Source: Micromonospora carbonacea
GTDB lineage: Bacteria; Actinomycetota; Actinomycetes; Mycobacteriales; Micromonosporaceae
NCBI RefSeq assembly: GCF_014205165.1
Contig: NZ_JACHMZ010000001.1
Coordinates: 4,012,501 to 4,076,500, forward strand
DNA length: 64,000 bases
Reading direction: 5' to 3'
The position numbers and the translations under genes were made by a program. Below, in pieces: positions 6,016 to 24,686 of this stretch; the stretch's first letter is position 1; every line of letters starts with the position of its first letter. The notes beneath the pieces are model-generated. The model saw nothing but the letters and a program-made list of their open reading frames with translations. It had not been told where the DNA came from and did no database searches.

Positions 6016-6034
6016 CCAACTGACCGACCGACTG

Positions 6035-6076
6035 GGCGGGGCGGGACGCCAGGCTGCTGCGGCGTCCCGCCCCGCC
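6035..6076 (+). terminator. Strong hairpin terminator after the S1 peptidase gene
   Basis: A perfect 16-bp stem (GGCGGGGCGGGACGCC and its complement) with a 10-base loop begins 19 bases after the stop codon. Confidence 0.8.
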
Positions 6077-6145
6077 GTCGCGCGCCCGCCGTCACGCACG
6101 CACCGTCACGCGCCCGCCGTCACGCGCCCGCCGTCACGCGCGCGG
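6076..6145. repeat. Five tandem copies of a 14-bp unit
   Basis: The unit CGTCACGCGCCCGC is repeated five times head to tail: 6076-6089, 6090-6103, 6104-6117, 6118-6131 and 6132-6145. Copies 3 and 4 are identical and the others differ by one to four bases. The array starts on the last base of the terminator stem. It has no coding frame that continues in either direction. Confidence 0.8.
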
Positions 6146-6803: not shown

Positions 6804-8243
6804 ATGACGATACCCGTTCCGGGAAAAGCGATTCGGAGTGCGGGCCGGGCACTCCTATTGACGTCCGGGCTGATTGCACTGGCCCTTCCTCTGACAGCCG
6901 CACCTGTCGACGCCCAGGGCCCGGCCGCCACCACCATCGTGATGCCCGAGTGCGCGTGGGCGTCGAAATACGGGGTTACGGGGCTGAATGCCTACTGGCC
7001 CGACAGCGCCGCCACCTACTGGTCGACCGTCTACCCGGTGACGGAGGATCTGGAGATCACCATCTCCGGGGTCTTCCCGGACGCCCGCTACGCGTCCTTC
7101 ACCGTCTACGACGACAAGCCCACCTGGTTCAGTCGTAACGGCGCCAGCTCCAGCCTGCCCGACCACCTCATCGCCCCGGACCCGGGCAGCGCCAACCCGT
7201 GGCAGGGCGTCAGGAGGCCCGGCGGCCGGTTCACCATCACGCTCAGCCCGGACGTGGCCCAGGGGCAACCCAACCGGCTGCCGCTGTCCCGGGAGGACGC
7301 CCTGCCCGGGGCGAAGGCCTCGGTGATCTACCGGGTCTACCTGCCCAGCGACGGCGACTCGACGGTGGTCCTGCCGACCGTGACCCTGACCCAGGGCGGG
7401 GTGTCCAAGACGCTGCCCACCTGCCCGCCCGCCCCGCCGCCGACCCCGTCCCCGACCGCGCCGCCGCCCTCTCCGACGGCCAGCCCGCCGCCGTCCCCCA
7501 CCACCTCGCCGCTCCCCACCACCACGCCACCCGCCACCCCGTCCGCCGCGCCGCCCGCCGCCCCGGCGGAGGACGGGCCGGCCGGCCGGCCGGTCGAGGA
7601 CGGCCCCGCGGGCCTCGGTGACGCGGACCGCCCCAGCCCTCCCCCGATAACCGGCGACAAGCTGTTCACCCGCACCTCCGAGGTGGAGAACCTCGCGCCG
7701 AACCCGGACAACGCCTACCTCGGCACCTGGCTCGTCCCGCCGGGGCCGGACCACGTCGTCGTGATCCGCGGCCGGGCGCCAGAGGCGGTCTCCGGGAACC
7801 GACCGGTCTCCTGGCCCCGCCGGCGCGCCGAGGTCCGCTACTGGTCGATGTGCACCAACCTGGGCGGCCAGTACAAGCCCGTCGTGATCAACCGGTTCGA
7901 CGACGGGTCGACGAGCTACGGCTGCCGCTACAACGACGAGACCCGGATCGACCGACACGGGAACTACGCCTTCGTCCTCGGCACGGAGGGGCAGCGGGCG
8001 GCCATCGAGGAGGTCAGGAACACCACCTTCGTGCCCTTCTCCGTCTCGTACCCGACGGTCCCGCACATGGTCCTGCTCCGCCACCTGCTGCCGGTGGAGG
8101 ACTTCCCGTACGCCGTGCAGAACGTGCCGATGAACAGCTCGGCGGAGACCGCCGCGTCGATCATGGGGGCGTACTACCCGCTGGTGACGATCTGCTCGTT
8201 GGCCACGCTCACCACCGAGGGGCCCCACGGCTGCTCGGCCTGA
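6804..8243 (+). CDS. Secreted two-lobe protein of unknown function with proline-rich linker
   Basis: A 479-residue exported protein I do not recognise with certainty. A signal peptide covers about residues 1-38 (hydrophobic core LLLTSGLIALALPL). An N-terminal lobe (about 40-205) and a C-terminal lobe (about 295-479) are joined by a low-complexity PPPSPT-rich linker (about 210-285). Each lobe has a beta-rich pattern: ITISGVFPDARYASFTVYDD in the first, VVVIRGRAP and AEVRYWSMCTN in the second, with several cysteines in the second. This looks like a duplicated domain. Blocks of the RYWSMC type occur in uncharacterised secreted actinobacterial proteins. The ATG at 6804 is preferred over an upstream in-frame ATG because it starts a clean signal peptide. 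Confidence 0.75.
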   Translation: MTIPVPGKAIRSAGRALLLTSGLIALALPLTAAPVDAQGPAATTIVMPECAWASKYGVTGLNAYWPDSAATYWSTVYPVTEDLEITISGVFPDARYASFTVYDDKPTWFSRNGASSSLPDHLIAPDPGSANPWQGVRRPGGRFTITLSPDVAQGQPNRLPLSREDALPGAKASVIYRVYLPSDGDSTVVLPTVTLTQGGVSKTLPTCPPAPPPTPSPTAPPPSPTASPPPSPTTSPLPTTTPPATPSAAPPAAPAEDGPAGRPVEDGPAGLGDADRPSPPPITGDKLFTRTSEVENLAPNPDNAYLGTWLVPPGPDHVVVIRGRAPEAVSGNRPVSWPRRRAEVRYWSMCTNLGGQYKPVVINRFDDGSTSYGCRYNDETRIDRHGNYAFVLGTEGQRAAIEEVRNTTFVPFSVSYPTVPHMVLLRHLLPVEDFPYAVQNVPMNSSAETAASIMGAYYPLVTICSLATLTTEGPHGCSA

Positions 8244-8349
8244 GCTCCCCCGGCGCACCGCGCCACGATCGGGGCGACGACCGGGCTGCGGCCCGGCAGC
8301 CCGCCGCCCGGCCCGCAGGTCCCGCGGGCCGGGCGGACGCCCGAAGCGG

Positions 8350-8394
8350 CGGGGACGACGCCGGCTGCCACCACAGCAGCCGGCGTCGTCCCCG
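8350..8394. terminator. Bidirectional hairpin terminator
   Basis: A perfect 19-bp stem (left arm 8350-8368, right arm 8376-8394) with a 7-base loop lies between the convergent secreted-protein gene and the cyclodeaminase gene, so it can serve both. Confidence 0.8.
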
Positions 8395-8489
8395 CGTAGG
8401 CGTCAGTTCACAGTTGTCCCGCGTCCCCGCGTAGGCGTCAGTTCACAGTTGTCGCCGCGTCCCCGCGTAGGCGTCAGTTCACAGTTGTC
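8388..8489. repeat. Three tandem copies of a 31-bp core repeat
   Basis: A 31-base core starting GTCCCCGCGTAGGCGTCAGT and ending TTCACAGTTGTC occurs at 8388-8418, 8423-8453 and 8459-8489 with no mismatches. The gaps are CCGC and GCCGC, and a truncated fourth start follows at 8495. The first copy overlaps the right arm of the preceding terminator stem, so the array looks like amplification of a terminator-proximal segment. Copies abut without unique spacers, so it is not a CRISPR array. Confidence 0.85.
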
Positions 8490-8724
8490 GCCGCGTCCCC
8501 GCCGCGGGCGTCGGCCCAGCGGCGTTCGGCGCAGCCGCCGTCCGGCCGCCCGCAGCCGGAGCGGCCACCGGCGGCGACCCCGCGACCGGGGCGGGCAGTG
8601 GAGTGTGGGACCGGCCCGCCGACGCGCCCGACCGGGGCGACCAGATGCGCGAGCGCAGCCACCCTCGACCGCCTCGGGCGGGCAGGGTGACGGGGTGGCG
8701 GGTGCCGCCGGGACGGCCCGGCCG
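8490..8724. other. Intergenic, no supported gene
   Basis: GC-rich sequence between the tandem repeats and the cyclodeaminase stop codon. No frame with a ribosome site or recognisable product is visible. Confidence 0.4.
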
Positions 8725-11704: not shown

Positions 11705-12041
11705 CGCCCCCACCCACCGCGCCCAGCTCCCCACCCCGCTCGCCCCGCCCCGCCCGGGTGGGCGTGTGGGAGGTGGTTACTGCTAGTGATTTTTCTTACC
11801 TGGTCGGGGGTGGTGGGGGCGGTGGGGGCGGGGAGAGGTGGGGGGCTGGTGTGGTTGTCGGGGGCGGCGGAATGTGGGTCGGGGAGGGTCTCTGGGGGGT
11901 TCTGAGCGGGGAAGACTGACCGATCGGACAGGTCTCGGTCGCAGATTTCGGCGGGCGGTCGGCTGTTCGTGGGAGCGCCTTCGGGGCCGCGGGCTCGGCA
12001 CTCTTGGATCGTTCCCGTTCACCGTGCGTAAGGGACCCGCC
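11705..12041. other. Intergenic leader with G-quadruplex-prone tract
   Basis: This 337-base stretch between the cellulase and the polysaccharide operon has no supported gene. The plus strand is strongly G-skewed from about 11800 to 11910. Runs of GGGGG at 11806, 11815 and 11824 and GGGG at 11830 are separated by one to four bases, a textbook intramolecular G-quadruplex pattern. A further run of six G lies at 11840. It would be in the 5' leader if the operon promoter is upstream. Confidence 0.6.
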
Positions 12042-13430
12042 ATGTCGCAGCTCCTGCCCGCCGCCGACCGGTCCCGCCCGCCGGCCGTCGCCCCGGCCGT
12101 CGTGCCCCACCCGGCCGCCCCGCCGTCGCCCGCCGCCGATCCGGCCGTCGTCGTCGCTCCGGTCGCCCCCGGGGCCCGCACCGCCGTGGTCGGCCTCGGC
12201 TACGTCGGCCTGCCCACCAGCCTGGCCCTCGTCGGCAGCGGCGCGCGGGTGATCGGCGTCGACATCGACCCGGCCCGGCTCGACGACATCCGCGCCGACC
12301 GGGCCGACCTGCTCGACGTCGACCGCGAGCGGCTCCGGGAGACGATGCGGGCCGCCGACCCCGCCCTGCGGCTCACCACCTCGATCGCCGAGATCGCCGA
12401 CGCCGACACGGTGCTGATCTGCGTCCCCACGCCGGTGGACCGCCACCTCGACCCGGACCTCACCGCGCTGCGGGCGGCCTGCGCCGCGGTGGTGGCCCAC
12501 GCCCGCCCCGGTCAGACCATCGTGCTCACCTCGACCAGCTACGTCGGCACCACCCGCGACCTGCTGGTCGAACCGCTGGCCGCCCGGGGCCTGCGGGTCG
12601 GGCGGGAGGTGTGGGTGGCCTTCGCCCCGGAACGGGTCGACCCCGGCAACGACGGGCACCGCCAGGAGCTGACCCCCCGGGTCGTCGGTGGGGTCACCCC
12701 CGACTGCACGGCGCGGGCCGCCACGGCGCTGGCCCGGATCACCCCCCGGGTGCACCGGCTCGGCTCGCCCGAGGCCGCCGAGATGACCAAGCTGTTGGAG
12801 AACACCTTCCGGGCCGTCAACATCGCCCTGGCCAACGAGTTCGCCGACCTCTGCCGGGACCTGCACCTGGACGTCACCGAGGTGATCGACGGGGCGGCCA
12901 CCAAGCCGTACGGGTTCATGGCCTTCCAGCCCGGCCCGGGGGTGGGCGGGCACTGCATCCCCTGCGACCCGCACTACCTGCTGTGGCAGCTGCGCGGGCA
13001 GCGCCGCGAGGCGCCGCTGATCGAGACCGCGATGCGGGGCATCTCCGCCCGTCCCCGCCGCGTCGTCGAGCGGGTCCGCGACCTGCTCGCCGGCGCCGGT
13101 CGTACGCTGCTCGGGGCCCGCGTCCTGCTGGTCGGGGTGACCTACAAGCCCGGCGTCGCGGACGTCCGCGAGTCGCCGGCGCTGGAGATCATCGGCGAGC
13201 TGGTCCGGGCCGGCGCGGACGTCGGCTTCGTCGACGACCTCGTCGCGTCGGTCCGCACGGCCGACGGCGCGACCCTGCGCCGGCTGACCGACCACACCGA
13301 GCGGGAGTGGGACCTGGTCGTCGTGCACACCGCCCAGGCCGACCTGGACGAGGCGTGGCTGGCCACCCAGCCGATGGTCCTCGACGCCACCTACCGGATG
13401 ACCGGGCTGCCGCGCCGCGAGGTCGTCTGA
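12042..13430 (+). CDS. Nucleotide-sugar (UDP-sugar) 6-dehydrogenase
   Basis: A 462-residue NAD-dependent enzyme of the UDP-glucose/UDP-ManNAc dehydrogenase family that oxidises a UDP-hexose at C6 to the uronic acid. The N-terminal Rossmann domain has VVGLGYVGLPTSLAL (about 47-61) after a Pro/Ala-rich 40-residue tail. The middle domain carries EMTKLLENTFRAVNIALANE. The catalytic cysteine is Cys305 in GGHCIPCDPHYL, and the C-terminal domain has GVTYKPGVADVRESPA. The HCIPCDP form is closer to the WecC/WbpA-type (N-acetylated UDP-sugar) branch than to classical UDP-glucose dehydrogenase, but specificity cannot be fixed by eye. It heads the operon and should supply a uronic acid donor to the synthase downstream. 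Confidence 0.9.
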   Translation: MSQLLPAADRSRPPAVAPAVVPHPAAPPSPAADPAVVVAPVAPGARTAVVGLGYVGLPTSLALVGSGARVIGVDIDPARLDDIRADRADLLDVDRERLRETMRAADPALRLTTSIAEIADADTVLICVPTPVDRHLDPDLTALRAACAAVVAHARPGQTIVLTSTSYVGTTRDLLVEPLAARGLRVGREVWVAFAPERVDPGNDGHRQELTPRVVGGVTPDCTARAATALARITPRVHRLGSPEAAEMTKLLENTFRAVNIALANEFADLCRDLHLDVTEVIDGAATKPYGFMAFQPGPGVGGHCIPCDPHYLLWQLRGQRREAPLIETAMRGISARPRRVVERVRDLLAGAGRTLLGARVLLVGVTYKPGVADVRESPALEIIGELVRAGADVGFVDDLVASVRTADGATLRRLTDHTEREWDLVVVHTAQADLDEAWLATQPMVLDATYRMTGLPRREVV

Positions 13431-13431
13431 G

Positions 13432-14808
13432 ATGCCCGCGCTCCAACCGGTCCGGCGCGGCCTGCGCCGGCTGCTCGTCGCGCTCTGCCTGCTCCCGCTG
13501 ATCGCCCTGCTGGCCCGGCAGCTGCCCCAGCTGCCGTACGCGCCGCTGGCGGCGTACTACGGGTTCGCCGTGCTCACCGCCACCGTCGCCGTGTTCTACC
13601 TGGCCTACGCCCGCTACGAGGACCCCAGCGAGGCCCCGGCGCACCCCCGGCACGCGGCCACGTTCCCGCCGCTGCCGCCGGCCCCCCGGGTGAGCCTGCT
13701 CGTGGCGGTCAAGGACGAGGTCGACGGGATCGAGGCGTGCGTGCGGTCGATGACCGGCAGCGACCACCGGCCGTTGCAGGTGATCGTCGTCGACGACGGC
13801 TCCACCGACGGCACCGCCGAGGTGCTGGACCGGCTCGCCGCCGAGCTGCCGGTCACCGTGCTGCACCTGCCCCGCAACGTCGGCAAGAAGCGGGCCCTGG
13901 TGCACGGGGCCCGGCACGCCGACGGCGACGTGCTCGCCTTCACCGACTCCGACTGCGTCCTGGCCCCGGACGCGCTGCGCCGCTGCGTCGAGGCCCTGCT
14001 GCGGCAGCCGGACCTGGGCGCGGTCAGCGGGCACGCCCGCGCGCTCAACCCCGACGAGTCGCTGCTCACCCGGGTGCAGGACGTCTGGTACGAGGGCCAG
14101 TTCCGGGTGGCCAAGGCCGCCGAGGCGTCGTTCGGGGCGGTCACCTGCGTCTCCGGCCCGCTGGCCGTGTTCCGGCGGGCAGCCGTGATCAACTACCTGC
14201 CGGCCTGGGCGGCGGACCGGTTCCTCGGCGGCGAGTTCCGCTTCGCCACCGACCGGCAGCTCACCGGCTACGTCCTCGGGCAGCGCTGGATCGGCGTACG
14301 CCTCAAGCGGCGCTTCGCCGACTCGCCGTTCGTCCGCGACGAGGACCACCCGCCCCGGGCCTGGCGGGTCGGGTACGTCCGCTCGGCGCGGGTGTGGACG
14401 ACGGTGCCGGCGCGGCCGCGCCCGTTCCTGCGCCAGCAGACCCGTTGGAAGAAGAGCTATGTGCGCAACCTCTTCTTCACCGGCACGTTCATGTGGCGGC
14501 GCGGGCCCGGCCCGGCGGCGCTCTACTACGGGCACGCGCTGTGGGTGGCGGTCGCCCCGGCGATGGCCTTCGCCCACCTGGTGTGGGCCCCGCTGCACGG
14601 CTGGTGGGCGGTGCCGCTGCTCTACCTGTGCGGGGTGCTGCTCAAGGGCACCTTCTGGGGGCTGGCCTACCGGCTGGACAACCCGGGCGACCCGCGCTGG
14701 GCGTACCGGCCGCTGATGAGCGTGCTCTCCGCCACGGTGCTGTCCTGGCTGCTGCCCTACTCGGTGGGCACGATCCGGCGCGGCGTCTGGTCGCGGAGCG
14801 CGGTGTGA
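13432..14808 (+). CDS. Hyaluronan-synthase-like processive glycosyltransferase (GT2)
   Basis: A 458-residue membrane GT2 enzyme. Two N-terminal membrane segments (about 10-28 and 38-60) precede the catalytic domain, and hydrophobic segments follow from about 360. Motifs in order are VVDDGSTD (about 118), DSDC (172-175), SGPLAVFRR, DRQLTGY and QQTRWKKSYVRN (Gln335-Trp339). The DRxLT plus QQxRWxKS pairing is typical of class I hyaluronan synthases and their NodC/chitin-synthase relatives. Such enzymes use UDP-GlcNAc, and UDP-GlcA for hyaluronan, and extrude the chain as it grows. The ATG begins one base after the dehydrogenase stop, so the two are coupled. Confidence 0.88.
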   Translation: MPALQPVRRGLRRLLVALCLLPLIALLARQLPQLPYAPLAAYYGFAVLTATVAVFYLAYARYEDPSEAPAHPRHAATFPPLPPAPRVSLLVAVKDEVDGIEACVRSMTGSDHRPLQVIVVDDGSTDGTAEVLDRLAAELPVTVLHLPRNVGKKRALVHGARHADGDVLAFTDSDCVLAPDALRRCVEALLRQPDLGAVSGHARALNPDESLLTRVQDVWYEGQFRVAKAAEASFGAVTCVSGPLAVFRRAAVINYLPAWAADRFLGGEFRFATDRQLTGYVLGQRWIGVRLKRRFADSPFVRDEDHPPRAWRVGYVRSARVWTTVPARPRPFLRQQTRWKKSYVRNLFFTGTFMWRRGPGPAALYYGHALWVAVAPAMAFAHLVWAPLHGWWAVPLLYLCGVLLKGTFWGLAYRLDNPGDPRWAYRPLMSVLSATVLSWLLPYSVGTIRRGVWSRSAV

Positions 14809-14924
14809 ACGCGGGCCGGCGGCTGCTCGCCGGGCTGGCCCGGGTGGCGCTCACCCTCGCCGGTGCCGTGGTGCTGGTCGCGCTCTACGTCGTGGTGTTC
14901 ACCCGTGGGGAGGTGCTGCGGTGA
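14805..14924 (+). CDS. Small single-pass membrane peptide in the polysaccharide operon
   Basis: A 39-codon frame (GTG start) fits exactly between the synthase and the deacetylase. Its start overlaps the synthase stop by four bases (GTGA), and its stop overlaps the deacetylase start by four bases (GTGA). The product is basic at the N-terminus (NAGRRLLAGLARV) followed by a hydrophobic helix (about residues 14-32) and a short FTRGEVLR tail. The double overlap and high third-position GC argue that it is real. It may assist the synthase or deacetylase in the membrane; no family is recognised. Confidence 0.6.
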   Translation: MNAGRRLLAGLARVALTLAGAVVLVALYVVVFTRGEVLR

Positions 14925-16453
14925 CGCGCTGGTGGCCCCGCCCGCTGGGGGCGCTGCTCTCGCTGGTCACCCTGCTGGTGGTGGCGACGCCGTTCGGGGT
15001 CTCCTGGTACCTGGCCGACCTGCGGCGGCACGTCGGCGCGCAGCGGGACACCGCGGTGACCCGGCTCGACCCGGCCGACCTGCGCCGGTTCACGGAGCTG
15101 GCCGGCCGGCTGCCGCAGCGGGCCGCGCCGGTGGTGGTGGCCTACCACGACGTCCGGCCGCACGGCGACGACCCGGCCGCGACCGAGCCGGGCGGCCGGG
15201 AGCACTACGTGGTCAGCCCGGAGGAGTTCGACGCGCAGCTCACCGCCCTGCGCGCGGCCGGCTACCGGTCGATCTCCACGGCGCAGTACGTCGACTACCT
15301 GCGCGGCGGCGCGGTGCCGGAACGCTCGGTCTACCTGACCTTCGACGACGGCACCCGGGGCCTGTGGGCGTACGCCGACCGGATCCTCGCCCGGCACGAC
15401 ATGGTGGCCGCCTCCTACCTGATCACCGGCCAGGTGGGCGAGCACCGGCCGTACTACCTGAGCTGGGCGGAGATCGCCCGGATGGCGCGCTCCGGCCGGT
15501 GGGACTTCCAGGCGCACACCCACGACCTGCACACCCGGGTGCAGACCGGGCCGGGCACGCAGGGCTCGCCGCTGACCCACCGGCGGTGGGACCCGGCCAC
15601 GGGGGCGCAGGAGAGCCTGGCCGCCTACCGGCAGCGGCTCACCGCCGACCTCGACGCGATGTTCGCCGCGTTCGCCGCCCACGACCTGCCCCGGCCGCAG
15701 TTGTTCGCGTACCCGTTCTCCGAGGTCGGCGACGCCGTGACCGACCCGGCGGCGGCCGGGTTCAGCCGCGAGCTGGTGGCCGGGCGGTTCGCCGCCGCGC
15801 TGACCAACAAGTCGCGGGGGCCCGAGCCGAGCAGCCGCCGGTCCGCAGCCGGTGGCCAGGTCGAGCGGGCCGAGGTGTACGCCACGACGAGCGCCGCCGA
15901 GCTGGTCAGCGCGGTCGTCGAGCGCACGGCGGTGCCCGCCCGGGTCAGCGCCCCGTTCACGAACCCGTGGGACTGGCGCGACCAGCAGGGCGAGCCGATG
16001 ACGGACCTGTCGTCGTTGACCGCCGGCCGGTTCACCGCCGCCAGCCCGCGCCGCGCCTACGGCACGCTGCTCGCCTACGCCAGCGCGGACTGGACCGACT
16101 ACACGGTCGACGCCACGCCGCGTGGGCTGCGGGCCGACGGCGGCACGGTCACCCTGACGGTCCGGGTGGACAGCGACGACCCGGTGTCGGTGCGCGTCGC
16201 GCACGGCCGGGTGGCGCTGCTGCGCGGCGACCGGGTGGTCGCCGAGGCCGCCCTGGCCCCGGCCGCCACCCACCGGGTGACGGTGACGGTGCGCGACGGC
16301 GAGACCGTCGCCCGGGTCGACGGCGGCCCCGCCCTGCGGGTGCCGACGCCGGCCGGGCCGCGGTCCACCGGCGGGCTCGCGGTGGCCGTCGACGACGCGG
16401 CGGACCGCCCCCACCCGTCGGTCGCCGCCCTCGACGTGCGCGCCGCGGGCTGA
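14921..16453 (+). CDS. Membrane-anchored polysaccharide deacetylase
   Basis: A 510-residue protein with an N-terminal membrane anchor (about residues 8-28) and a NodB-type deacetylase domain (about 65-300). The domain opens with VVVAYHDVRP, carries the metal Asp pair in YLTFDDGTRG, and a HTHDLH histidine motif. The arrangement resembles PgaB/IcaB-like deacetylases, which partly deacetylate extracellular poly-N-acetylhexosamine. The C-terminal third (about 345-510) is beta-rich (VTLTVRVDSDDPVSV, HRVTVTVRDGETVARVDGG) and looks like a carbohydrate-binding sandwich. It is the last gene of the operon and should trim the polymer made by the GT2 enzyme outside the membrane. Confidence 0.85.
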   Translation: MTRWWPRPLGALLSLVTLLVVATPFGVSWYLADLRRHVGAQRDTAVTRLDPADLRRFTELAGRLPQRAAPVVVAYHDVRPHGDDPAATEPGGREHYVVSPEEFDAQLTALRAAGYRSISTAQYVDYLRGGAVPERSVYLTFDDGTRGLWAYADRILARHDMVAASYLITGQVGEHRPYYLSWAEIARMARSGRWDFQAHTHDLHTRVQTGPGTQGSPLTHRRWDPATGAQESLAAYRQRLTADLDAMFAAFAAHDLPRPQLFAYPFSEVGDAVTDPAAAGFSRELVAGRFAAALTNKSRGPEPSSRRSAAGGQVERAEVYATTSAAELVSAVVERTAVPARVSAPFTNPWDWRDQQGEPMTDLSSLTAGRFTAASPRRAYGTLLAYASADWTDYTVDATPRGLRADGGTVTLTVRVDSDDPVSVRVAHGRVALLRGDRVVAEAALAPAATHRVTVTVRDGETVARVDGGPALRVPTPAGPRSTGGLAVAVDDAADRPHPSVAALDVRAAG

Positions 16454-16487
16454 CGGCCGCGCCGGCCGGGCCGGGCGCGGGGACGCC

Positions 16488-17744
16488 TCAGCCGTCGCGC
16501 AGCACCCGGCGGGACAGGCCGAAACCGAAGGCGGCCCCCAACGTCGCGGCCGTGGCCAGGAACAGCACCGGGCTGCCGTACGCGTCCACGACCAGCCCCG
16601 CCGCCGCGCCGGAGAGCGGGAACAGGCCCAGCGCGGCGAGGAGGATGGCGCTCATCACCCGGCCGAGCAGGTGGGGGGCGGTGTGCTGCTGGACGACGGT
16701 GATCACCAGGACGTTGGTCACGGTGCTGGCGACCCCGGCCACGGCCAGCGCGACGAGGGCCCCGACGTACCCGGTGAACGGCACGAGGGCCACCGCCACG
16801 GCCAGCACCAGGCCGGCGAGCATGGCGGTGACGCCGCGCCGCCGGATCCCGGTCAGCCCGGCGGTGAAGAACCCGCCGGCCAGCGAGCCGCCGGTGAACG
16901 CGGCCAGCAGGCCGCCGAAGCCCTCGGCCCCGGCGGCCAGGTCGGCGCTGGCCAGCGAGGGCAGGCCCACCCGGACCATCCCGCCGACGGTCAGGTTGGC
17001 CGCGGCGGTCACCACCAGCACGGTACGCAGCAGCGGCGACCCGCGCAGCAGCTGCCAGAACGTCAGCCGTGGCGGCGGCGGCGCGCCGGCGGCGGGCGGG
17101 GCGGCGGCCGGCGCGGCCCGCCGGTGGTGCGCCCCGATCACGGCGAGGCAGGCCGCCGACACCGCGAAGGTCAGCGCGTCCACGCCGAACGCGACGCCCG
17201 GCGAGAGCAGCACGACGACGAGCCCGGCCACCCCGGGCCCGACCAGCCCGGCGGCGAAGCCGGCGGCGCTGTGCAGCGCGTTGCCGGCCTGCAACTGCTC
17301 GGCCGGCAGCAGCCGGGGCGTGATGGCGTAGGCGGCCGGCTGGAACAGGCCGGCCCCCAGGCCGGCGACGGCGACCAGCGCCCCGATCAGGACGAGGCCC
17401 GGGTCGCCGGCGACGGCGGCCACCGCGATCGGGACCGTGGCCGCCAGCCGGAGCAGGTCGGAGGCCAGCATCACCTGCCACGGGCCGACCCGGTCGGCGA
17501 GGATCCCGCCCAGCGGGGTGGTCGCCAGCCGGCACAGGCCGTAGCCGGCGACCAGCAGCCCGAGCTCCCGCGCGCCCCCGCCGACCTGGTAGACGAGGAA
17601 GGGCAGCGCGACGGCGTGGAAGGCGTCGCCGAAGACCGACACCGACTCGGCGACGAAGAGCAGCCGGTAGTCGCGGGAGCGCAGCGGCGCCAGGCTCAGC
17701 CGCAGCCGACGCCGGGGGGTCCGGGTGGCGGTGGGGTCAGCCAC
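16488..17744 (-). CDS. MFS transporter, probable RiPP exporter
   Basis: A 418-residue major facilitator of the macrolide-efflux/MFS_3 type with about 12 hydrophobic segments. It starts RDYRLLFVAESVSVFGDAFHAVALPFLVYQV, with the typical RLPxxxxxGNAL-like block (LLPAEQLQAGNALHSAAGF) in the middle. The GTG start at 17744 overlaps the P450 stop by eight bases. It is the last gene of the RiPP operon, where an exporter or self-resistance pump is expected. The direction of transport and the cargo are inferred from context. Confidence 0.85.
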   Translation of the reverse strand: MADPTATRTPRRRLRLSLAPLRSRDYRLLFVAESVSVFGDAFHAVALPFLVYQVGGGARELGLLVAGYGLCRLATTPLGGILADRVGPWQVMLASDLLRLAATVPIAVAAVAGDPGLVLIGALVAVAGLGAGLFQPAAYAITPRLLPAEQLQAGNALHSAAGFAAGLVGPGVAGLVVVLLSPGVAFGVDALTFAVSAACLAVIGAHHRRAAPAAAPPAAGAPPPPRLTFWQLLRGSPLLRTVLVVTAAANLTVGGMVRVGLPSLASADLAAGAEGFGGLLAAFTGGSLAGGFFTAGLTGIRRRGVTAMLAGLVLAVAVALVPFTGYVGALVALAVAGVASTVTNVLVITVVQQHTAPHLLGRVMSAILLAALGLFPLSGAAAGLVVDAYGSPVLFLATAATLGAAFGFGLSRRVLRDG

Positions 17745-18942
17745 GCGGGGCCACCGGCAGCGACTCCAGCCCGCGCAGCATGATCGTGTTGCGCCAGCGC
17801 AGGTCCGCCTCGACGCCGGCCAGGGCCAGCGCCGGGAAGCGGTCCAGCAGCCCGGCCAGCGCCACCTCGCCCTCCAGCTTGCCGAGGAACGCGCCGAGGC
17901 AGCGGTGCGTCCCGTGGCCGAAGGCGAGGTGCCCGGCGTCGCCCCGGTCGAGCAGCAGCCGGTCGGCGTCGGGGAACCGGTCGGGGTCGCGGTTCGCCCC
18001 GCCGAGGGACACCAGCACCAGCTCACCGGCGGGGATCTCCACCCCGTCGACGTCCACCGGCGCGGTGGTGAACCGCAGGGTGGCCATGCTCACCGGCGAC
18101 TCGTACCGGAGGAACTCGTCGACCGCGGCGGGCAGCGCGGCCCGGTTGCGCCGCAGCCAGGCGTGCTGGTCGGGATTTCGCAGCAGCGCCAGGGTGGCCG
18201 TGCCGAGCAGGTTGACGGTCGTCTCATGGCCCCCGATGAGCAGCAGGAACACCATGCCCACGATCTCGTCGTCGGTGAGCTGCCCCTGGTCGCGGGCCGC
18301 GAGCAGGACGGTCAGCAGGTCGTCGCGCGGGTCGGTGCGCCGCCGCCGCAGCACGACGGCGATGTGCGCGGTCAGCTCCCGCAGGGCCCGGCCGAACGCC
18401 TCCGGGTCGTCGCCGTGGGTCAGGATCGCCGTCGACCAGCTCCGGTAGGCGGCCCGCTCCTCGGGCGGGAAGCCGATCAGCTCGCAGATGACCAGCATGG
18501 GCAGCGGGAACGCGAAGTCCGCCACGAGGTCGACGGTGTCGCGGTCGGCGACCTCGTCGAGCAGGGCGGTGGTGATCCGCTGCACCAGCGGCCGCATCGC
18601 CGCCACCCGGCGGGCGGTGAAGAACCCGTGGATCAGCCGGCGCAGCCGGGTGTGGTCGGGCGGGTCGCTGTTGAGCATGTGGACCATGTCGCCGCCGAGC
18701 GTCACCCCCGCCACCCGGCGGTCGGCCAGCTCCTGCGCGCGGCGGGCGTCCTGACCGAACCTCGGGTCGGCCAGCGCCGCGCGCACGTCGCGGTAGCGGG
18801 CGACGACCCACATGGGCAGCCCCTCGTCGCTGTGCAGGATCGACACCGGGCCGTTGGCCCGGATCCGGGCCAGCGTCGGGTAGGGGTCGACGACGAACGG
18901 GGCCTGTGGCGGCGGCGTCGGCCCGTCCTCGGCGGCGGTCAT
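17737..18942 (-). CDS. Cytochrome P450
   Basis: A 401-residue bacterial class I P450. The I-helix reads LLIGGHETTVN, the K-helix EFLRYESPV, and the heme-binding loop FGHGTHRCLGAFLGK with Cys348 as axial ligand. These are the motifs of actinobacterial CYP105/107-like secondary-metabolism P450s. The start at 18942 has GAGGAGACCC upstream and a family-like N-terminus. It lies 50 bases after the DUF5825 gene and overlaps the exporter gene. It may oxidise or cross-link the modified peptide. No ferredoxin gene is next to it. Confidence 0.93.
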   Translation of the reverse strand: MTAAEDGPTPPPQAPFVVDPYPTLARIRANGPVSILHSDEGLPMWVVARYRDVRAALADPRFGQDARRAQELADRRVAGVTLGGDMVHMLNSDPPDHTRLRRLIHGFFTARRVAAMRPLVQRITTALLDEVADRDTVDLVADFAFPLPMLVICELIGFPPEERAAYRSWSTAILTHGDDPEAFGRALRELTAHIAVVLRRRRTDPRDDLLTVLLAARDQGQLTDDEIVGMVFLLLIGGHETTVNLLGTATLALLRNPDQHAWLRRNRAALPAAVDEFLRYESPVSMATLRFTTAPVDVDGVEIPAGELVLVSLGGANRDPDRFPDADRLLLDRGDAGHLAFGHGTHRCLGAFLGKLEGEVALAGLLDRFPALALAGVEADLRWRNTIMLRGLESLPVAPRG

Positions 18943-18992
18943 GGGTCTCCTCTTCGGTGGCGCTCGGGCGGTGCTGGACGATCGGGGCGGCG

Positions 18993-19652
18993 CTAGACGA
19001 TCAGGGCGGGGAAGGGCCAGCGGTGGGCGCGGGTCGGCAGCCACCACAGGTGGCCGGCCTGCTCGGCGACCAGGTGCGCCCCGACGAGGTCCCGGCGCAC
19101 GTCGGCCGGCACCGCCGTCGCCGCGACGCCCTCGGCCAGGGGCGCGATCGCCGCCAGGTGGCCCGGCTCGTCGATCGTCACCACCTCCAGGGCGCCGGAG
19201 CGCCGGTCGCGGACCTCCACGAAGCCGGGGCCGCGCCGGTAGACGCAGCGGCCGAGGAAGAACGCCGCCCGCCAGCGGGCCGCGACCGTGCCGGTGGCGT
19301 CCCCGTCGAGGCGGGACGGTGGGCACAGGTGGGTGAACAGGTCGCCGCCGTGGCAGCCGTCCCGGCAGCGCGCCGTCCAGTCCACCGCGATCCCCCGGGC
19401 GGTCAGCTCGCGGACCAGCAGGAGGGACCGCGCCGCGCGGGCGTCCGCGTCGGCGCACAGGTCCACCGGGTGGGCCAGTCGCGCGTGCCGCGCGCCGGCG
19501 GCGTACCAGCCGGCCACCGTCTCCCCGCACGGCCCGACCAGCCGGCGCGTGCCGAGCGCCATCCCGGGCAGCCGCGCGGCGGCCGGGTCGTAGTCGCGGG
19601 ACAGCTCGACCTCGACCACGGTCGCGCCGAAGTCACCCCGCGGCGACGGCAT
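18993..19652 (-). CDS. DUF5825 family protein, RiPP-cluster associated
   Basis: A 219-residue soluble protein that I assign to DUF5825, a family found beside RiPP-maturation radical SAM C-methyltransferases; the assignment is from recall of such neighbourhoods. Features are a central cysteine-rich stretch (WTARCRDGCHGG, then HLCPP), FFLGRCVYRRGPGFVEVRDRRSG, and a C-terminal LVAEQAGHLWWLP. The start at 19652 overlaps the end of the methyltransferase gene by 20 bases, so the two are coupled. It could be a partner or recognition subunit for the methyltransferase; the molecular role is unknown. Confidence 0.7.
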   Translation of the reverse strand: MPSPRGDFGATVVEVELSRDYDPAAARLPGMALGTRRLVGPCGETVAGWYAAGARHARLAHPVDLCADADARAARSLLLVRELTARGIAVDWTARCRDGCHGGDLFTHLCPPSRLDGDATGTVAARWRAAFFLGRCVYRRGPGFVEVRDRRSGALEVVTIDEPGHLAAIAPLAEGVAATAVPADVRRDLVGAHLVAEQAGHLWWLPTRAHRWPFPALIV

Positions 19653-21561
19653 GGCGGTCCTGTCCGGCGCGCGCGGCGGCGTCCGCGGCGGCCCGCTGGT
19701 GGTCGACCCGGGCCAGCACCTGGTTGTGCGACTCGACGGCGGTGTGCACCCAGCAGCCTCCCTCGTGGAACACGATGCCCAGCTCCGACCATTGGTCGAG
19801 CAGCGGCCGGACCGTCGCCGCCCCGCCGGGGACGCGGGCCGCCAGGGTGGCGTCCGTGCGGGGCTGCGCCAGCAGCCGGAACAGCGCCACCTCGGCCGGC
19901 GTGGCCAGCTCGCGCACCGACCAGTCGTACGCGGCGCGGCGGCTGACCAGCACGACCCGGTCGTCGATCTCCTGGTAGGTGAGCCGGCTGACCGGGTACT
20001 CGGTCCGCCACCGGTCGATCGCCGCGTCCAGCGCCGCCGCCTCGGCCCGGCCGATGCCCCGGGCCACGGTGGTGAAGATGTACGCCAGGTCGGTCAGCTC
20101 GGCGGCGGGCAGGTCGTAGATCTCCCGGTACTGCGGGGCGGGCTCCAGCACCGGGAAGCCCAGCTCCGGCTGGTTGAAGTAGGGGCTGAACCGCTCGATG
20201 GCGATGCGCGCCGCGCCCATCGGCGGGTCGAGGTGGTGCAGCGCCGGCAGTTGCGCGACGACGTCGGTGTAGTCCTCGGCGGTCTCGCCGGGGAAGCCGT
20301 AGAGGTAGTTCCAGCTCGTCGTCACCCCGGCGCTCTGGGCCTCGCGCAGCGCGCGGACGTTCTGGCAGCCGGTCACGCCCTTGTCCATCAGCCGCAGCAC
20401 GTGGGTGCTGAGGTTCTCCACCCCGGGCTGGACCTGCACCGCCCCGGCCTCGGCGAGCCGTTGGAAGTGCTGCCGGCGCAGGTTGGCCTTGACCTCGAAG
20501 TGCAGGCGGACGTCGTAGTCGGATTCGGCCAGCCGCAGCAGCACCGAGTCGAAGTACGCCATGTCCAGGATGTTGTCGACCACGATGAAGTCGAGCATCT
20601 GGTGCCGGCGGGCCAGGTCCAGCACCTCGTCGAGGAAGCGTCCCGGGCTCTTGCTGCGGAACTGCATCGACGAGCCGTTGAGGCCGCAGAAGGTGCAGTG
20701 GTGCTTCTCGCCCCACCAGCAGCCCCGGGAGCCCTCGACGACGAGCTTCGGGGCCACCCACTCGGCCGCCGCCGAGGCGTCGAGGCGTTCGACGAAGCCC
20801 GTGTAGTCGGGGGCGACGATCCGGGCCGGCGGCAGCGGTCGCGCCGACATGGGGTTGGCCCGCGCGCCGCCCGTCGGGTCCCGCCAGCACAGCCCGGGGA
20901 TGTCCGCGAGGCCGCCGCCGGGGCGCGGGTCGCCGCCGCCGGTGTCCGGCGCGGCATCGAGCGCGGCGAGCAGCGCGGGGAAGGCCGCCTCCCCCTCGCC
21001 GCGCACGACGAAGTCGAGGAACGGGAAGTTGCGGTGCAGCGCCGCGCCCTGCGCCCCGTCGCAGTTGGCCCCGCCGAGGACGGTCCGCACGGCGGGCCTG
21101 CGCTGCTTGAGCAGCCGGGCGGCGGCCAGGCTGGCGGTGTTCTGCTGGAAGGTGCTGGTGAACCCGACGACGTCGGGCGCGGCGGCGTCCAGCTCGGCGA
21201 CCAGGGTCGCCACGAACTCCGGCACCAGCTCGTGCAGCGTGGCGGTCAGCGCCGCCTCGGCCCGGCTGGCCCCCGCGTCGGCCAGCAGCCGGTGCAGCGG
21301 CGCGAAGTCGCGCCGCCGCCCGTAGAGGGCCCCGGCGAACACCCAGTCCCCGGCCCCCTGGAAGTAGGAGGTCTCGGAGAAGTACTGGTAGTCGGCCAGG
21401 CCGAAGGTAAGGCGGTCCACCGCCCAGTCGACGAAGTCGAGGTTCGCGTAGCGGACCTCGACTTCGTGGCCGGCGACGCCGGCGGTGGCGCGCAGGATGC
21501 CCAGGGCGAGCGACGGGACGTCGAGCGATCCCCACGGCATGTGCACCAGGACGACCTTCAT
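19633..21561 (-). CDS. RiPP-maturation B12-binding radical SAM C-methyltransferase
   Basis: A 642-residue protein with an N-terminal cobalamin-binding-like domain (about 1-190, with GFTSTFQQNTASLAAARLLK and LGGANCDG). A radical SAM domain follows (about 265-480). The cluster cysteines are Cys281, Cys289 and Cys292 in GCWWGEKHHCTFCG. The C-x7-C-x2-C spacing differs from canonical CxxxCxxC but is, as I recall, the hallmark of this RiPP family (rSAM_ocin type). A further C-terminal region spans about 490-642. Such enzymes methylate unactivated carbons of residues in ribosomal peptides. The start at 21561 has GGAGAGGAG upstream. It follows the precursor gene across a 94-base gap holding a hairpin. 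Confidence 0.9.
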   Translation of the reverse strand: MKVVLVHMPWGSLDVPSLALGILRATAGVAGHEVEVRYANLDFVDWAVDRLTFGLADYQYFSETSYFQGAGDWVFAGALYGRRRDFAPLHRLLADAGASRAEAALTATLHELVPEFVATLVAELDAAAPDVVGFTSTFQQNTASLAAARLLKQRRPAVRTVLGGANCDGAQGAALHRNFPFLDFVVRGEGEAAFPALLAALDAAPDTGGGDPRPGGGLADIPGLCWRDPTGGARANPMSARPLPPARIVAPDYTGFVERLDASAAAEWVAPKLVVEGSRGCWWGEKHHCTFCGLNGSSMQFRSKSPGRFLDEVLDLARRHQMLDFIVVDNILDMAYFDSVLLRLAESDYDVRLHFEVKANLRRQHFQRLAEAGAVQVQPGVENLSTHVLRLMDKGVTGCQNVRALREAQSAGVTTSWNYLYGFPGETAEDYTDVVAQLPALHHLDPPMGAARIAIERFSPYFNQPELGFPVLEPAPQYREIYDLPAAELTDLAYIFTTVARGIGRAEAAALDAAIDRWRTEYPVSRLTYQEIDDRVVLVSRRAAYDWSVRELATPAEVALFRLLAQPRTDATLAARVPGGAATVRPLLDQWSELGIVFHEGGCWVHTAVESHNQVLARVDHQRAAADAAARAGQDRHAVAAG

Positions 21562-21592
21562 CGCCGGTCTCCTCTCCGGGCGGGCTGGGCAT

Positions 21593-21625
21593 CGTTCCGG
21601 GGCCTCGCGGCGGCGCCCCGGAACG
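21593..21625 (-). terminator. Hairpin between precursor and maturase genes (attenuator-like)
   Basis: A perfect 11-bp stem (CGTTCCGGGGC and its complement) with an 11-base loop lies 30 bases after the precursor stop codon and 32 bases before the methyltransferase start. Such intercistronic hairpins often raise precursor mRNA relative to enzyme mRNA in peptide clusters. Confidence 0.55.
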
Positions 21626-21655
21626 ACGTCGTGGACGTGCGTCACCACGGCCGGG

Positions 21656-21802
21656 TCACTTGGCGGCCGGCGGCGTCTCGGTCACCTGGGGCCGCGCGGC
21701 CGGGACCGCCCGGTCAAGATCGAGGAGCATCTTGACGATGACGGCGCCGCGGTCCCGCTCGCCCGTGCTGATCGGGTCGTGCCGCACAGTGCGTCGCTTC
21801 AT
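21656..21802 (-). CDS. Candidate RiPP precursor peptide (48 residues)
   Basis: A short frame with an excellent ribosome site (GGAGGGAGGTGA) eight bases or fewer ahead of its ATG at 21802. The peptide starts MKRRTVRHDPISTGERDRG, has a hydrophobic helix-like centre (AVIVKMLLDLDRAV) and ends with a Pro/Val/Thr/Ala-rich tail (PAARPQVTETPPAAK). Third positions are about 90% G or C. The S9 peptidase frame, which overlaps its first 89 bases, has poor third-position GC there, so selection acts on this frame. Placement directly before the C-methyltransferase gene fits a substrate peptide. I know no named precursor family that matches. The tail is the likely core (inference). Confidence 0.7.
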   Translation of the reverse strand: MKRRTVRHDPISTGERDRGAVIVKMLLDLDRAVPAARPQVTETPPAAK

Positions 21803-23597
21803 TGCATTCACCTCCCTCCGGTCGGTCGGGGGTCGGACCCCGCCGGTCGCGGTGGTCCTGACTGGGGGCCGCCGGGGCCGGCCCGTGCGGGGGCAGCACC
21901 GCGGTGGCGTAGCGGAGCAGGGCGGCGAAGACGGCCGTCTGGCCGGCCGGGTCCCCGTGGTGGCCGCCGGTGGTCCAGAGCACCTCGTGCGGCACCGACC
22001 GGTCCCGCAGCGCGGCCGCGTACCGGCCGACCGCCTCGGCGGGGCACCGCTCGTCGTCGGTGGCGGCGGCGACGAAGAGCGGCCCGCGCACCCGGTCCAG
22101 GTACGTCATCGGGTCGGCGGCCCGGTACCGGTCGGGGACCTCGGCGGGGGTCCCGCCGAAGAGCTCCTCGTCCGCCTCGCGCACGGCGGGCGACGTCGTG
22201 CGGTGCGCGGTGGAGTAGTCGGCCACCGGGGAGACCGCCAGCCCGACCGCCCAGTCGTCGGGCGCGACGCCCAGCGCGAGCAGCACCAGGTAGCCGCCCC
22301 AGGAGTAGCCGCACAGCCCGACCCGCCCCGGCTGCGCGACGCCGAGCTCGACCAGGTGCCGGCGTACGGCGGCGAGGTCCTCCAGCTGGGCCAGGCCGAC
22401 CCGGTGGCCGAAGTCGTGCCGCCAGCGCGGGCCGTAGCCGGTGGACCCCCGGTAGTTGGTGCGCGCGACGGCGTAGCCGGCCCCGGTGAGCAGCTCCACC
22501 CGGGGGTCGTAGCTGTCCCGGTCGTGCAGGAACGGCCCGCCGTGCAGCAGGAGGATCGTCGGCCACGGCCCCGGGCCGGGCGGGGTGGCCAGGAAGCTGT
22601 GGATCCGGCCGTACGACTGGGGTGTCCACACCTCGCGGCGGCCCGGCACCCTCGCCGGGCCCGGCGTCGGACGGGGGCCGGCGGCGGGGTCGACGACGAG
22701 CCGGCGCGGCGGCGTCGCCTCCCGGCTCCACACGTAGTGGATCGCGCCCTCGGGGGCGCAGGCCAGCTCCAGGATGGTCCCCGGCGGGGTGGGCAGGACG
22801 GCCGGCGCGCCGCCGTCGAGGTCGGCCAGGAGCAGCCGGCTGCGTCCCGCCCGGTCCTGTTGGACCAGCACCCGGCGGCCGTCGACGTGCCAGTGCGCGG
22901 TGATCTCCGTGTCGAACGCCAGCCGCCCGTGCAGCCGGACGTCCCGGCCCGGCCGCCAGGTGCCGACGGTGTAACGCCCGCCCGCCTCCACGACCAGCAG
23001 CAGCTCCGCGTCGCCGGCCGGGTCGGGGCGGAACTCCAGGCCCCACAGCCGGCGGTGCGGGCCGCCGGCGAGGGTCTCGGTGTGGCCGTCGGTGAGGCGG
23101 GCCACCGTGACGGCGGCCGGCCCGTCCGGCCGGCCGGCGAGGGCGAGCAGGGCGCCGTCGGGGCTCAGGTCCACCAGCGGCGCGTAGCCGGCCACGGCTG
23201 CGACCAGCCGGGCCGGGCCGCCGGGCGGGCCCAGGTGGTAGCGGGACTCCGCGGCGCGCCCGACGCAGACGACCGCCAGCGTGCCGGCGTGGTCGAAGGC
23301 GATGCCGTACGGCCGGCCCCGGGGCAGCCCGGTCAGCGCGGGCGCGGCCGGTCCGCCGTCGAACGGCTGGCGTCGCCAGACGCCCACGCCGTCCGGGCCG
23401 GCGTCGAACCACCAGACGTGGCCGCCGTCCGGCTCCAGGTCGCAGGCGTCCACCCCGTGCCGCGCCCCGGTCAGGACCCGGCGCCGCCCGGTGCCGCGGT
23501 CCCAGGCGACGACCTGGGGACGGCCCGCGACGTCGGCGAGTTCGACGGCCCGCAGCGGGGCGGCGGCGGCGAACGCCGGTGCGCACGGTGCAATCAC
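21714..23597 (-). CDS. S9 family (prolyl oligopeptidase-like) peptidase
   Basis: A 627-residue serine peptidase of the prolyl oligopeptidase/dipeptidyl aminopeptidase class. The N-terminal half (about 1-350) is a beta-propeller. The C-terminal alpha/beta hydrolase domain has Ser432 in GYSWGGY, Asp514 or 515 in AATDDERCP and His546 in GGHHG. No signal peptide is seen with the GTG 23597 start; the frame upstream of it is not gene-like. The last 60 or so codons, after LLRYATAVLPPHG, lose codon bias and run out of frame into the precursor gene. As first gene of the operon it is a candidate leader-removing protease or a self-protection enzyme. Confidence 0.85.
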   Translation of the reverse strand: MIAPCAPAFAAAAPLRAVELADVAGRPQVVAWDRGTGRRRVLTGARHGVDACDLEPDGGHVWWFDAGPDGVGVWRRQPFDGGPAAPALTGLPRGRPYGIAFDHAGTLAVVCVGRAAESRYHLGPPGGPARLVAAVAGYAPLVDLSPDGALLALAGRPDGPAAVTVARLTDGHTETLAGGPHRRLWGLEFRPDPAGDAELLLVVEAGGRYTVGTWRPGRDVRLHGRLAFDTEITAHWHVDGRRVLVQQDRAGRSRLLLADLDGGAPAVLPTPPGTILELACAPEGAIHYVWSREATPPRRLVVDPAAGPRPTPGPARVPGRREVWTPQSYGRIHSFLATPPGPGPWPTILLLHGGPFLHDRDSYDPRVELLTGAGYAVARTNYRGSTGYGPRWRHDFGHRVGLAQLEDLAAVRRHLVELGVAQPGRVGLCGYSWGGYLVLLALGVAPDDWAVGLAVSPVADYSTAHRTTSPAVREADEELFGGTPAEVPDRYRAADPMTYLDRVRGPLFVAAATDDERCPAEAVGRYAAALRDRSVPHEVLWTTGGHHGDPAGQTAVFAALLRYATAVLPPHGPAPAAPSQDHRDRRGPTPDRPEGGECNEATHCAARPDQHGRAGPRRRHRQDAPRS

Positions 23598-23879
23598 GAC
23601 GACCCCGTTCCGCCGGCCGGCCGGAGCACCGATCGTAATAGACGGATGACGATGCGTACATGCCGCCGGGCGGGGTTGCCCGCCGCCCCGCAACTGTCAC
23701 TTCACGGGCGCTTCCCGGTCAGTCGTCATGACGCGCCGCAAAAGGGGTCCGCCCGCATCCCGGCGACGGCGGTCACCCATGGAGGTCGGTGCCGGCCGCC
23801 CCGCGCGGCTGGGTTACCGTACCCGGGTGCCGACGCACGGACCTCGTCCTCTGGGCCGCCGCCGCGGGCGGGCCTCCTC
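23598..23879. promoter_or_regulatory. Divergent intergenic region, RiPP operon and ABC ATPase
   Basis: This 282-base spacer must carry the RiPP operon promoter (minus strand) and the ABC gene promoter (plus strand). An AT-richer patch with CTATTACGAT on the minus strand near 23640 is a possible -10 region. A convincing -35 partner is not visible. Confidence 0.35.
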
Positions 23880-24686
23880 GTGACCGCTCCCCCGGTGCTG
23901 CGCGTGACCGACGCGACCGTGGTCCGCGACGGCAGACCGATCCTGAGCGAGGTGTCGCTGACCGTGCGGGCCGGCGAGCACTGGGCGCTGCTCGGCCCCA
24001 ACGGGGCGGGCAAGAGCACGCTGCTCGGTCTCCTCGGCGCCGTCACGCACCCCACCCGGGGCACCGTCGAGGTGCTGGGCCACCGGCTGGGGCGGGTCGA
24101 CATGCGCGAGTTGCGGGCCCACGTCGGCCACGTCGATCCGCGGCACGACCTGCGCTCGCCCCTCACGGTGCACGACGTCGTGCTGACCGGGCTGACCAAC
24201 ACCGTCGAACGCGTGCCCCGCTGGGCGCCGACACCCGAACAGGTCGCGCAGGCCGACCGGCTGATCGGCCTGCTCGGCCTCGGCGAGCGCCACGGCGCGC
24301 GGTGGCCGACCCTGTCGCAGGGGGAACGGGGCCGCGCGCTCATCGCCCGCGCGCTGATGCCCAGCCCGCGGCTCCTGCTGCTCGACGAGCCCGCGACCGG
24401 TCTCGACGTCGCCGGCCGGGAACAGCTCATCGAGCGGCTCGACGAGCTGCAACACGCCTACCCGGAACTCGCGTCCGTCCTGGTCACCCACCACCTGGAG
24501 GAGCTTCCTCCCGGGACGACCCACGTGCTGCTGCTGCGGGACGGGCGCTGCCTGGCGTCGGGGCCCGCCGACGAGGTCCTCACCAACGACCAGGTCAGCA
24601 AGTGCTTCGACCATCCCGTCCGGCTCACCCGCGTCGAGGGACGGTGGAGCGTGCGGGCGAACCGCCCGGCGAGGCCGACCGGCTGA
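23880..24686 (+). CDS. Stand-alone ABC transporter ATP-binding protein
   Basis: A 268-residue ABC ATPase. Walker A is GPNGAGKST (39-47), the signature is LSQGERGRALIARAL, and Walker B is LLLLDEPATGLD followed by an H-loop in VTHHLEE. The pattern resembles the iron/zinc/molybdate importer ATPase branch (ModF/FecE-like), where single ATPases without a cognate permease occur. No permease is adjacent. The GTG start at 23880 is the first plausible one, although a frame stays open far upstream. Function cannot be narrowed further, and it need not belong to the RiPP cluster. Confidence 0.85.
   Translation: MTAPPVLRVTDATVVRDGRPILSEVSLTVRAGEHWALLGPNGAGKSTLLGLLGAVTHPTRGTVEVLGHRLGRVDMRELRAHVGHVDPRHDLRSPLTVHDVVLTGLTNTVERVPRWAPTPEQVAQADRLIGLLGLGERHGARWPTLSQGERGRALIARALMPSPRLLLLDEPATGLDVAGREQLIERLDELQHAYPELASVLVTHHLEELPPGTTHVLLLRDGRCLASGPADEVLTNDQVSKCFDHPVRLTRVEGRWSVRANRPARPTG

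Follow-up and report, generated by a model that had tools for sequence, protein, structure and literature searches.

The clavusporins, which are mpc-type ribosomally synthesised and post-translationally modified peptides (RiPPs), were reportedly described by Zhang et al. in Nat. Chem. Biol. in 2025. During clavusporin biosynthesis, a B12-dependent radical SAM enzyme (B12-rSAM) and a DUF5825 protein, homologous to the pair addressed here, are stated to C-methylate residues (PMC12257519; preprint PMC12026744), and MpcP, a prolyl oligopeptidase, is stated to take off the leader (PMC12951456). Parts of this enzymology are also known from passages on other RiPPs: aminopyruvatide (apy) biosynthesis combines B12-rSAM C-methylation and a cytochrome P450 on one precursor (PMC10635010), biarylitide clusters include a P450 and a prolyl oligopeptidase (PMC12951456), and biphenomycin-like YHxYxY clusters may hold a second B12-rSAM and a DUF5825 protein (PMC12257519). 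This article addresses a 64,000-nt stretch of Micromonospora carbonacea DNA (contig NZ_JACHMZ010000001.1, positions 4,012,501 to 4,076,500), hereafter called the window, in which genes encoding an S9 peptidase, a short precursor peptide, a B12-rSAM (rSAM below), a DUF5825 protein, a P450 and a major facilitator superfamily (MFS) protein form an apparent operon (Table 1). As far as sequence can tell, this operon is a well-supported P450-bearing branch of the clavusporin-type RiPP clusters, and its product is quite probably a clavusporin-like RiPP that is oxidised in addition.

Relationship with clavusporin-type and other RiPP clusters

From its name and gene content, Streptomyces clavuligerus appears to be the clavusporin producer, and its pSCL4 locus (L140) would be the mpc cluster. 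This locus carries genes encoding an MFS protein and an S9 peptidase, the precursor frame MQKDVIHNDPLAGDEENRKPSVGITITVPFRNAEDADED, and genes encoding a TIGR03975-type rSAM and a DUF5825 protein. The distributed gene table does not list this precursor frame (7813-7932), which overlaps the S9 gene at its annotated 3' end.

The window shares with this type an S9 protease of the prolyl oligopeptidase family, a short precursor with a [DN]P[IL]-type leader, a TIGR03975 B12-rSAM and an adjacent DUF5825 protein, encoded in the same order. Unlike the S. clavuligerus locus, it has an added P450 gene and a downstream MFS gene, the MFS gene of S. clavuligerus being located upstream of the S9 gene. The precursors differ at the start of the leader (KRR in the window, QKD in S. 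clavuligerus), in the core (GAVIVKMLLDLDR versus SVGITITVPFR, the former without the T/V/I alternation) and after the core, where the window has a follower with [KR]A[VA]P and S. clavuligerus an acidic RNAE..E tail. As four of its six genes match the characterised system and as its core differs from that of S. clavuligerus, the window is considered here as a sister branch distinguished by its core and by two extra genes, and not as a clavusporin cluster. A surfactant, C-methylated product is a further trait of the clavusporin type.

The other systems are more remote, according to the passages available on them. The biphenomycin-like clusters share with the window the B12-rSAM/DUF5825 pair but display an MNIO and aromatic core motifs, whereas the window has no MNIO among its six genes and no aromatic residue in its core. 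Aminopyruvatide differs by its Tyr-Tyr biaryl cross-link, its MNIO and the subfamilies of its rSAM and P450; indeed, the window proteins reach only 75.5 bits with the NCBIfam model ApyD (cut-off 750) and 61.8 bits with ApyO (cut-off 525). The biarylitide clusters resemble the window by their P450 and prolyl oligopeptidase but their P450 makes a cross-link, and the passages on them mention no B12-rSAM.

A first-pass annotation, made by a model from the DNA alone, had considered the combination with a P450 as unusual and knew of no characterised product for such a layout. The former view stands only in part, since aminopyruvatide also pairs a B12-rSAM and a P450 (PMC10635010), as do seven of the 99 loci compared below. 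The latter holds for the layout with this P450 and MFS protein but not for the four-gene core, which corresponds, in the passages cited above, to that of the clavusporins. Among titles and abstract beginnings in one open-access library, which leaves most subscription journals outside, no paper on a P450-bearing clavusporin-like cluster was found.

Conservation of the six-gene operon

A scan with the rSAM protein, using one genome per species, gave 565 relatives, the best 80 of which were kept. Together with 28 further regions from genomes of the genus of the window (151 genomes scanned) and the window itself, minus ten duplicates, they constitute a working set of 99 loci. The first-look candidates scored per genome numbered 8 in this 151-genome scan, and 26 and 4 in the 70- and 392-genome scans presented below; absences in these scans are weaker because only part of the candidates was scored.

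The six genes are found in identical order in all 18 non-duplicate loci of a clade that includes Micromonospora, Salinispora, Catenuloplanes, Actinophytocola and Streptomyces/Kitasatospora, the closest relatives carrying the cluster being Micromonospora. Nine of the 151 sampled genomes of the genus of the window, itself included, harbour this six-gene type. A single branch of the rSAM tree (99 rows; SH-aLRT 100) separates the P450-bearing loci from the others; an ungrouped row, S. toxytricini L081, joins it at an open fork. When the neighbourhoods are compared, as the first-pass annotation had proposed, the operon block is kept and the flanks are changed among the 17 relatives. For three Micromonospora loci (L041-L043), the sole DNA similarity to positions 8001-34000 of the window spans 16460-23675, i.e. 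the operon, and 12 of the 17 relatives show no matches outside the operon; L044, L045, L046 and L068 share one segment outside it, and the closest relative, L040, is syntenic beyond it. The six-gene operon travels as a unit. The pairwise distances of five operon proteins correlate (Spearman 0.73-0.94), a value that is descriptive only because shared ancestry alone can produce such a correlation.

That the P450 and MFS genes come from an unrelated pathway and are downstream neighbours by chance could be argued from the sister clusters, which are devoid of this P450, and from L081, whose rSAM and DUF5825 protein are close to those of the P450 clade but whose fetched 17.9 kb contain no S9, P450 or MFS match. 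Such a coincidence is highly improbable: the two genes adjoin the others in 18/18 clade loci from several genera with changed flanks, five more loci keep an S9-precursor-P450 arrangement without rSAM, and the short, Trp-containing and divergent precursor candidate of L081 (MKKRTVQSTDSAAGSGRWMVWAAPAARK, at about -175 from the rSAM) is also devoid of the core Asp and of the DP leader motif. The L081 genome includes a second TIGR03975 enzyme above the cut-off and no close P450 (best 45-47 percent).

The precursor peptide

The precursor of the window, MKRRTVRHDPISTGERDRGAVIVKMLLDLDRAVPAARPQVTETPPAAK, can be divided into a leader containing HDPI (residues 1 to about 18/20), a hydrophobic core (about 19/21-32) and a follower (33-48), with guessed borders. 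The 48-residue candidate retained by the first-pass annotation is conserved at the same position in all 17 other non-duplicate clade loci, i.e. a short frame lies between the S9 and rSAM genes in 18/18 loci including the window. The alignment of the 15 different clade peptides reveals that M1, K2, R3, R4, D9, P10, I11, E15, R16, R18, G19, A20, V21, D28 and A32 are invariant. Codons 1-32 of L040, L041 and L042 display 0, 1 and 0 nt differences out of 96 from those of the window, and codons 33-46, in the follower, are more variable among these four loci; in more distant relatives, third positions account for just over half of the differences in codons 1-32 (11/19 in L044, 12/22 in L064).

A search among 5.8 billion proteins (E 0.01) gave eight homologues of 45-52 aa, the three source-named ones being hypothetical proteins. 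The window precursor matches no NCBIfam or Pfam model at E 0.1, and six further precursors from these and neighbouring clusters match no NCBIfam model at E 1. More widely, a short frame with a [DN][PS][LIA]-type leader is found upstream of the rSAM gene in 78 of the 99 loci, 18 in the clade and 60 outside. Sixty rows of the rSAM tree outside the clade have an S9 and an rSAM without this P450, and 58 of them have such a precursor (e.g. MQKDIIHNDPLAGDEENRKPGIGITVTVPFRNAEDGDED). One locus without this P450, L086, carries two different tandem precursor frames upstream of the rSAM, at -402 and -216.

The short frame might not be the substrate at all, the cluster acting on another peptide or on a small molecule: the frame is known here from DNA only, and its 89-nt overlap with the S9 gene could itself conserve part of the sequence. 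This is scarcely plausible. The distance between the precursor start and the S9 stop ranges from -120 to +145 nt among the relatives' rows compared, and the overlap is therefore not fixed and cannot account for the conservation of the frame; moreover, identical residues are kept across the 18 clade peptides, and a related leader motif is found at the equivalent position in the 60 loci outside the clade. The 48-residue frame is thus regarded, from these comparisons, as a genuine precursor. Neither an unconserved frame nor genes scattered in close relatives, either of which would have counted against the proposal of the first-pass annotation in its own terms, was found.

After residue 18, none of the 18 clade precursors contains any Trp, Tyr or His; aromatic residues are absent altogether from this part in six of them, that of the window included, and the other 12 have one Phe there; no Cys is found in the whole peptide. 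A motif [KRDQ]A[VASTE][PAV] is present after residue 18 in 18/18 clade precursors versus 0/60 outside the clade, a count that is a description and not a test because the pattern was defined after viewing the alignment; it was also seen by eye in five P450-only precursors. With guessed ends, the unmodified candidate cores have neutral monoisotopic masses of 1313.774 (VIVKMLLDLDR), 1384.811 (VIVKMLLDLDRA), 1441.833 (GAVIVKMLLDLDR) and 1580.932 (VIVKMLLDLDRAVP).

The modification enzymes

The rSAM scores 639.7 bits with TIGR03975 (cut-off 281.85) and also matches PF02310 (B12-binding) and PF04055. The C-x7-C-x2-C motif pointed out in the first-pass annotation corresponds to C281, C289 and C292, invariant in 38/38 aligned rSAM homologues. 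Its partner matches PF19142 (228.6 bits), the sole match in the genome. Not every B12-rSAM enzyme is a methylase (PMC12257519), and the top fold match of the window rSAM is OxsB; it might therefore perform another chemistry, such as a C-C cross-link like PbsB in the biphenomycin-like pathway. We consider this as distinctly unlikely, as the enzyme belongs by score to TIGR03975 and adjoins a DUF5825 protein, such a pair being stated to C-methylate, whereas PbsB is stated to act on hydroxylated aromatic residues (PMC12257519), which the window core lacks. C-methylation, which the homology with the clavusporin pair suggests, is thus the reading retained here.

The C-terminal part of the DUF5825 protein (about 134-206) gives a weak match to an RRE-like (PqqD-like) fold. 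Homology between the C-terminal parts of the DUF5825 protein and of the rSAM was also considered, and the hhalign comparison was not significant. Besides, a C-x3-C pair (CRDGC and similar, residues 96-100) was counted by eye in 14/15 clade rows of the DUF5825 alignment and in L081 but in 0/22 of the remaining rows, near-copies being included; the cysteines of L064 are spaced differently. The pair may be a metal or redox site specific to the clade.

The P450 matches PF00067 (100.9 bits). A heme-ligand Cys and an acid/alcohol pair of the I helix are hallmarks of P450s; in the window protein, they correspond to C348 and E240/T241, which are invariant in 15/15 aligned sequences. Among its best solved relatives are TamI, PikC and EryF, hydroxylases of macrolides and similar compounds. 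The peptidase matches PF00326 (119.1 bits, full frame) and the MFS protein PF07690 (105 bits, on 16488-17738).

P450s that cross-link RiPPs exist, as reported for aminopyruvatide (PMC10635010) and the biarylitides (PMC12951456), and the P450 of the window could likewise make a macrocycle instead of hydroxylating. This appears unlikely. Aromatic residues in the core, characteristic of such cross-linked RiPPs, are absent from the window precursor, aromatic cross-linking being disfavoured by the composition of the core, and the ApyO score is far below its cut-off. With no Trp, Tyr or His after residue 18, oxidation at aliphatic carbons is a likelier role for this P450 than the linking of aromatic rings. 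The case against a cross-link is weaker for the P450-only loci described below, because four of these five have one His and all five have one Cys after residue 18.

Proposed pathway and points against it

The leader (M-K-R-R...DPI...ER-R) would be bound by the rSAM/DUF5825 pair, probably via the RRE-like C-terminal part of the DUF5825 protein. The B12-rSAM would then methylate unactivated carbons of the hydrophobic core V-I-V-K-M-L-L-D-L-D-R, and the P450 would hydroxylate (or desaturate) an aliphatic core position, perhaps guided by the clade motif D28...[K/R]A[V/A]P. The S9 peptidase would cut off the leader and possibly the follower, and the MFS protein would export the finished product, probably a small, hydrophobic peptide with extra methyl groups and oxygen. 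C-methylation and leader removal are drawn from homology; the P450 reaction and its site, the order of the steps, the export, the role of the RRE-like part and the cleavage sites are what we infer in addition. The C-methylated, oxidised, S9-cleaved and exported peptide imagined in the first-pass annotation is the best fit to the gene content, conservation and homology.

Besides the core, which does not resemble the one in S. clavuligerus, several observations complicate this proposal. First, 21 of the 99 loci have no precursor by the motif used. These are 14 loci with a distant rSAM (L032-L039, L053, L055-L059), L081, L123 and L135, two loci whose contig starts just before the rSAM (L121 and L134) and two in which an S9 is present (L126 and L130); other short frames are found upstream of the rSAM in L053, L032, L055, L056 and L059. 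Second, a different P450 accompanies a TIGR03975-like gene within the region retrieved for seven of the 99 loci. In L137 (S. albireticuli), a clavusporin-like rSAM/DUF5825 pair occurs with a P450 that is 47 percent identical and is encoded on the opposite strand; in L038, the P450 gene is about 7 kb away; and in five Micromonospora loci (L032, L035, L039, L055, L056), the rSAM and DUF5825 genes are more divergent and the P450s are 37-40 percent identical. As these seven loci carry other P450s, the rSAM and P450 pairing evolved more than once. Third, the clade motif of the precursor might be used in cleavage by S9 and not by the P450, because the S9 peptidases of P450-bearing clusters also form their own branch; the data are compatible with both roles.

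Four of the Micromonospora loci cited above (L032, L055, L056 and L059) belong to a different cluster type, with a precursor like MKITVVKVKAPTHGVCKYLVPLNRPQTQK located at most about 340 nt before the rSAM. They encode a TIGR03975-like rSAM and a DUF5825 protein, and three of the four have another P450.

Clusters with the P450 alone

The P450 also has close homologues outside the clade; its search gave 894 at E 1e-100, the best 120 of which were listed. P450 scans matched 10 of 70 genomes of the genus of L066 (E 1e-110) and 5 of 392 sampled genomes of the genus of S. aureoverticillatus (E 1e-125). Regions of 14 kb (10 kb in one case) were examined for 13 of these 15 matches, the other two being L065 and L066. 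Eight of the 13 are of the six-gene type, namely the clade loci L067-L071 and the new L153, L158 and L169, the last giving no MFS match at E 1e-3.

The five others (L159, at 4861-8606, L160, L170, L171 and L172) carry an S9 gene, a related precursor (e.g. MKRHGLRVDPISATERERGIIIPPDHQLTLDKAVPVRPNGQARTCTTTRTEKNAEK) and the P450, with no rSAM or DUF5825 match in the region examined. Their genomes contain no TIGR03975 match above the cut-off; four of them have no DUF5825 match, and the fifth has a partial one of 27.5 bits, formally above the cut-off of 25. As these clusters keep a related leader and the S9, the P450 appears to be tied to this precursor type, and they may represent a type of RiPP modified by the P450 only.

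The S9 tree (49 rows: 25 of the 60 P450-less S9, 19 two-module and five P450-only) places the two-module and P450-only loci on one side of a branch and the P450-less ones on the other (100/100). The P450-only group is weakly nested inside the P450-bearing group (83/84). The P450-only loci thus likely, though not certainly, arose by loss of methylation from the two-module state.

Three architectures are thus observed on one leader/S9 chassis, relatives carrying either the methylating or the oxidising part singly, or the two together. We would give about even chances to a broader model in which two modules come and go on this chassis, the P450 being a leader- or follower-guided aliphatic oxidase. 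Its candidate sites would be the invariant Asp28, the Leu/Met neighbours of Asp28 or the newly installed C-methyls.

Gene calls and neighbouring genes

The host genome of the window is 7.53 Mb in one contig. The six genes of the first-pass annotation were all found at 16488-23597 in the order it gave, on a single strand. Its end for the S9 gene, 21808, was wrong: the S9 gene extends 89 nt into the precursor gene, in a different frame, before its stop codon. A promoter scan found no sigma-70-like site, and two overlapping weak terminator-like matches lie within the DUF5825 gene.

Table 1. Genes of the operon in the window, with coordinates as positions of the window
Product	Coordinates	Strand	Remarks
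S9 (prolyl oligopeptidase-type) peptidase	21714..23597	-	627 aa, GTG start, GYSWGG nucleophile motif
Precursor peptide	21656..21802	-	48 aa, between S9 and rSAM
B12-dependent radical SAM C-methyltransferase (rSAM), predicted	19633..21561	-	642 aa
DUF5825 partner protein	18993..19652	-	219 aa, 20-nt overlap with rSAM gene
Cytochrome P450	17737..18942	-	401 aa, GGHETT and FGxGxHRCxG-type motifs
MFS exporter (predicted)	16488..17744	-	418 aa from GTG 17744, 8-nt overlap with P450 end

On one side, consecutive plus-strand genes encoding a UDP-glucose/GDP-mannose dehydrogenase, a family 2 glycosyltransferase and a polysaccharide deacetylase (11838-16453) are convergent with the RiPP operon. On the other side, a plus-strand stop-to-stop frame (23703-24686), divergent from the S9 gene, contains a Walker A motif (GPNGAGKS) and LLLLDEP and would encode an ABC ATPase-like protein, as read from these motifs only.

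Significance

Peptides methylated on unactivated carbons are rare and useful. If a P450 also oxidises the same aliphatic ribosomal precursor, a second C-H functionalisation that is hard to make would be added. As methylation-only, combined and oxidation-only clusters have related leaders, the roles of the enzymes and the rules of recognition can be tested by precursor swaps. Genome mining should seek S9 genes with DP-leader frames also where no radical SAM gene is present. If the modular model is true, the third arm, where the P450 works with no methyltransferase, would be an undescribed, P450-only class of RiPPs.

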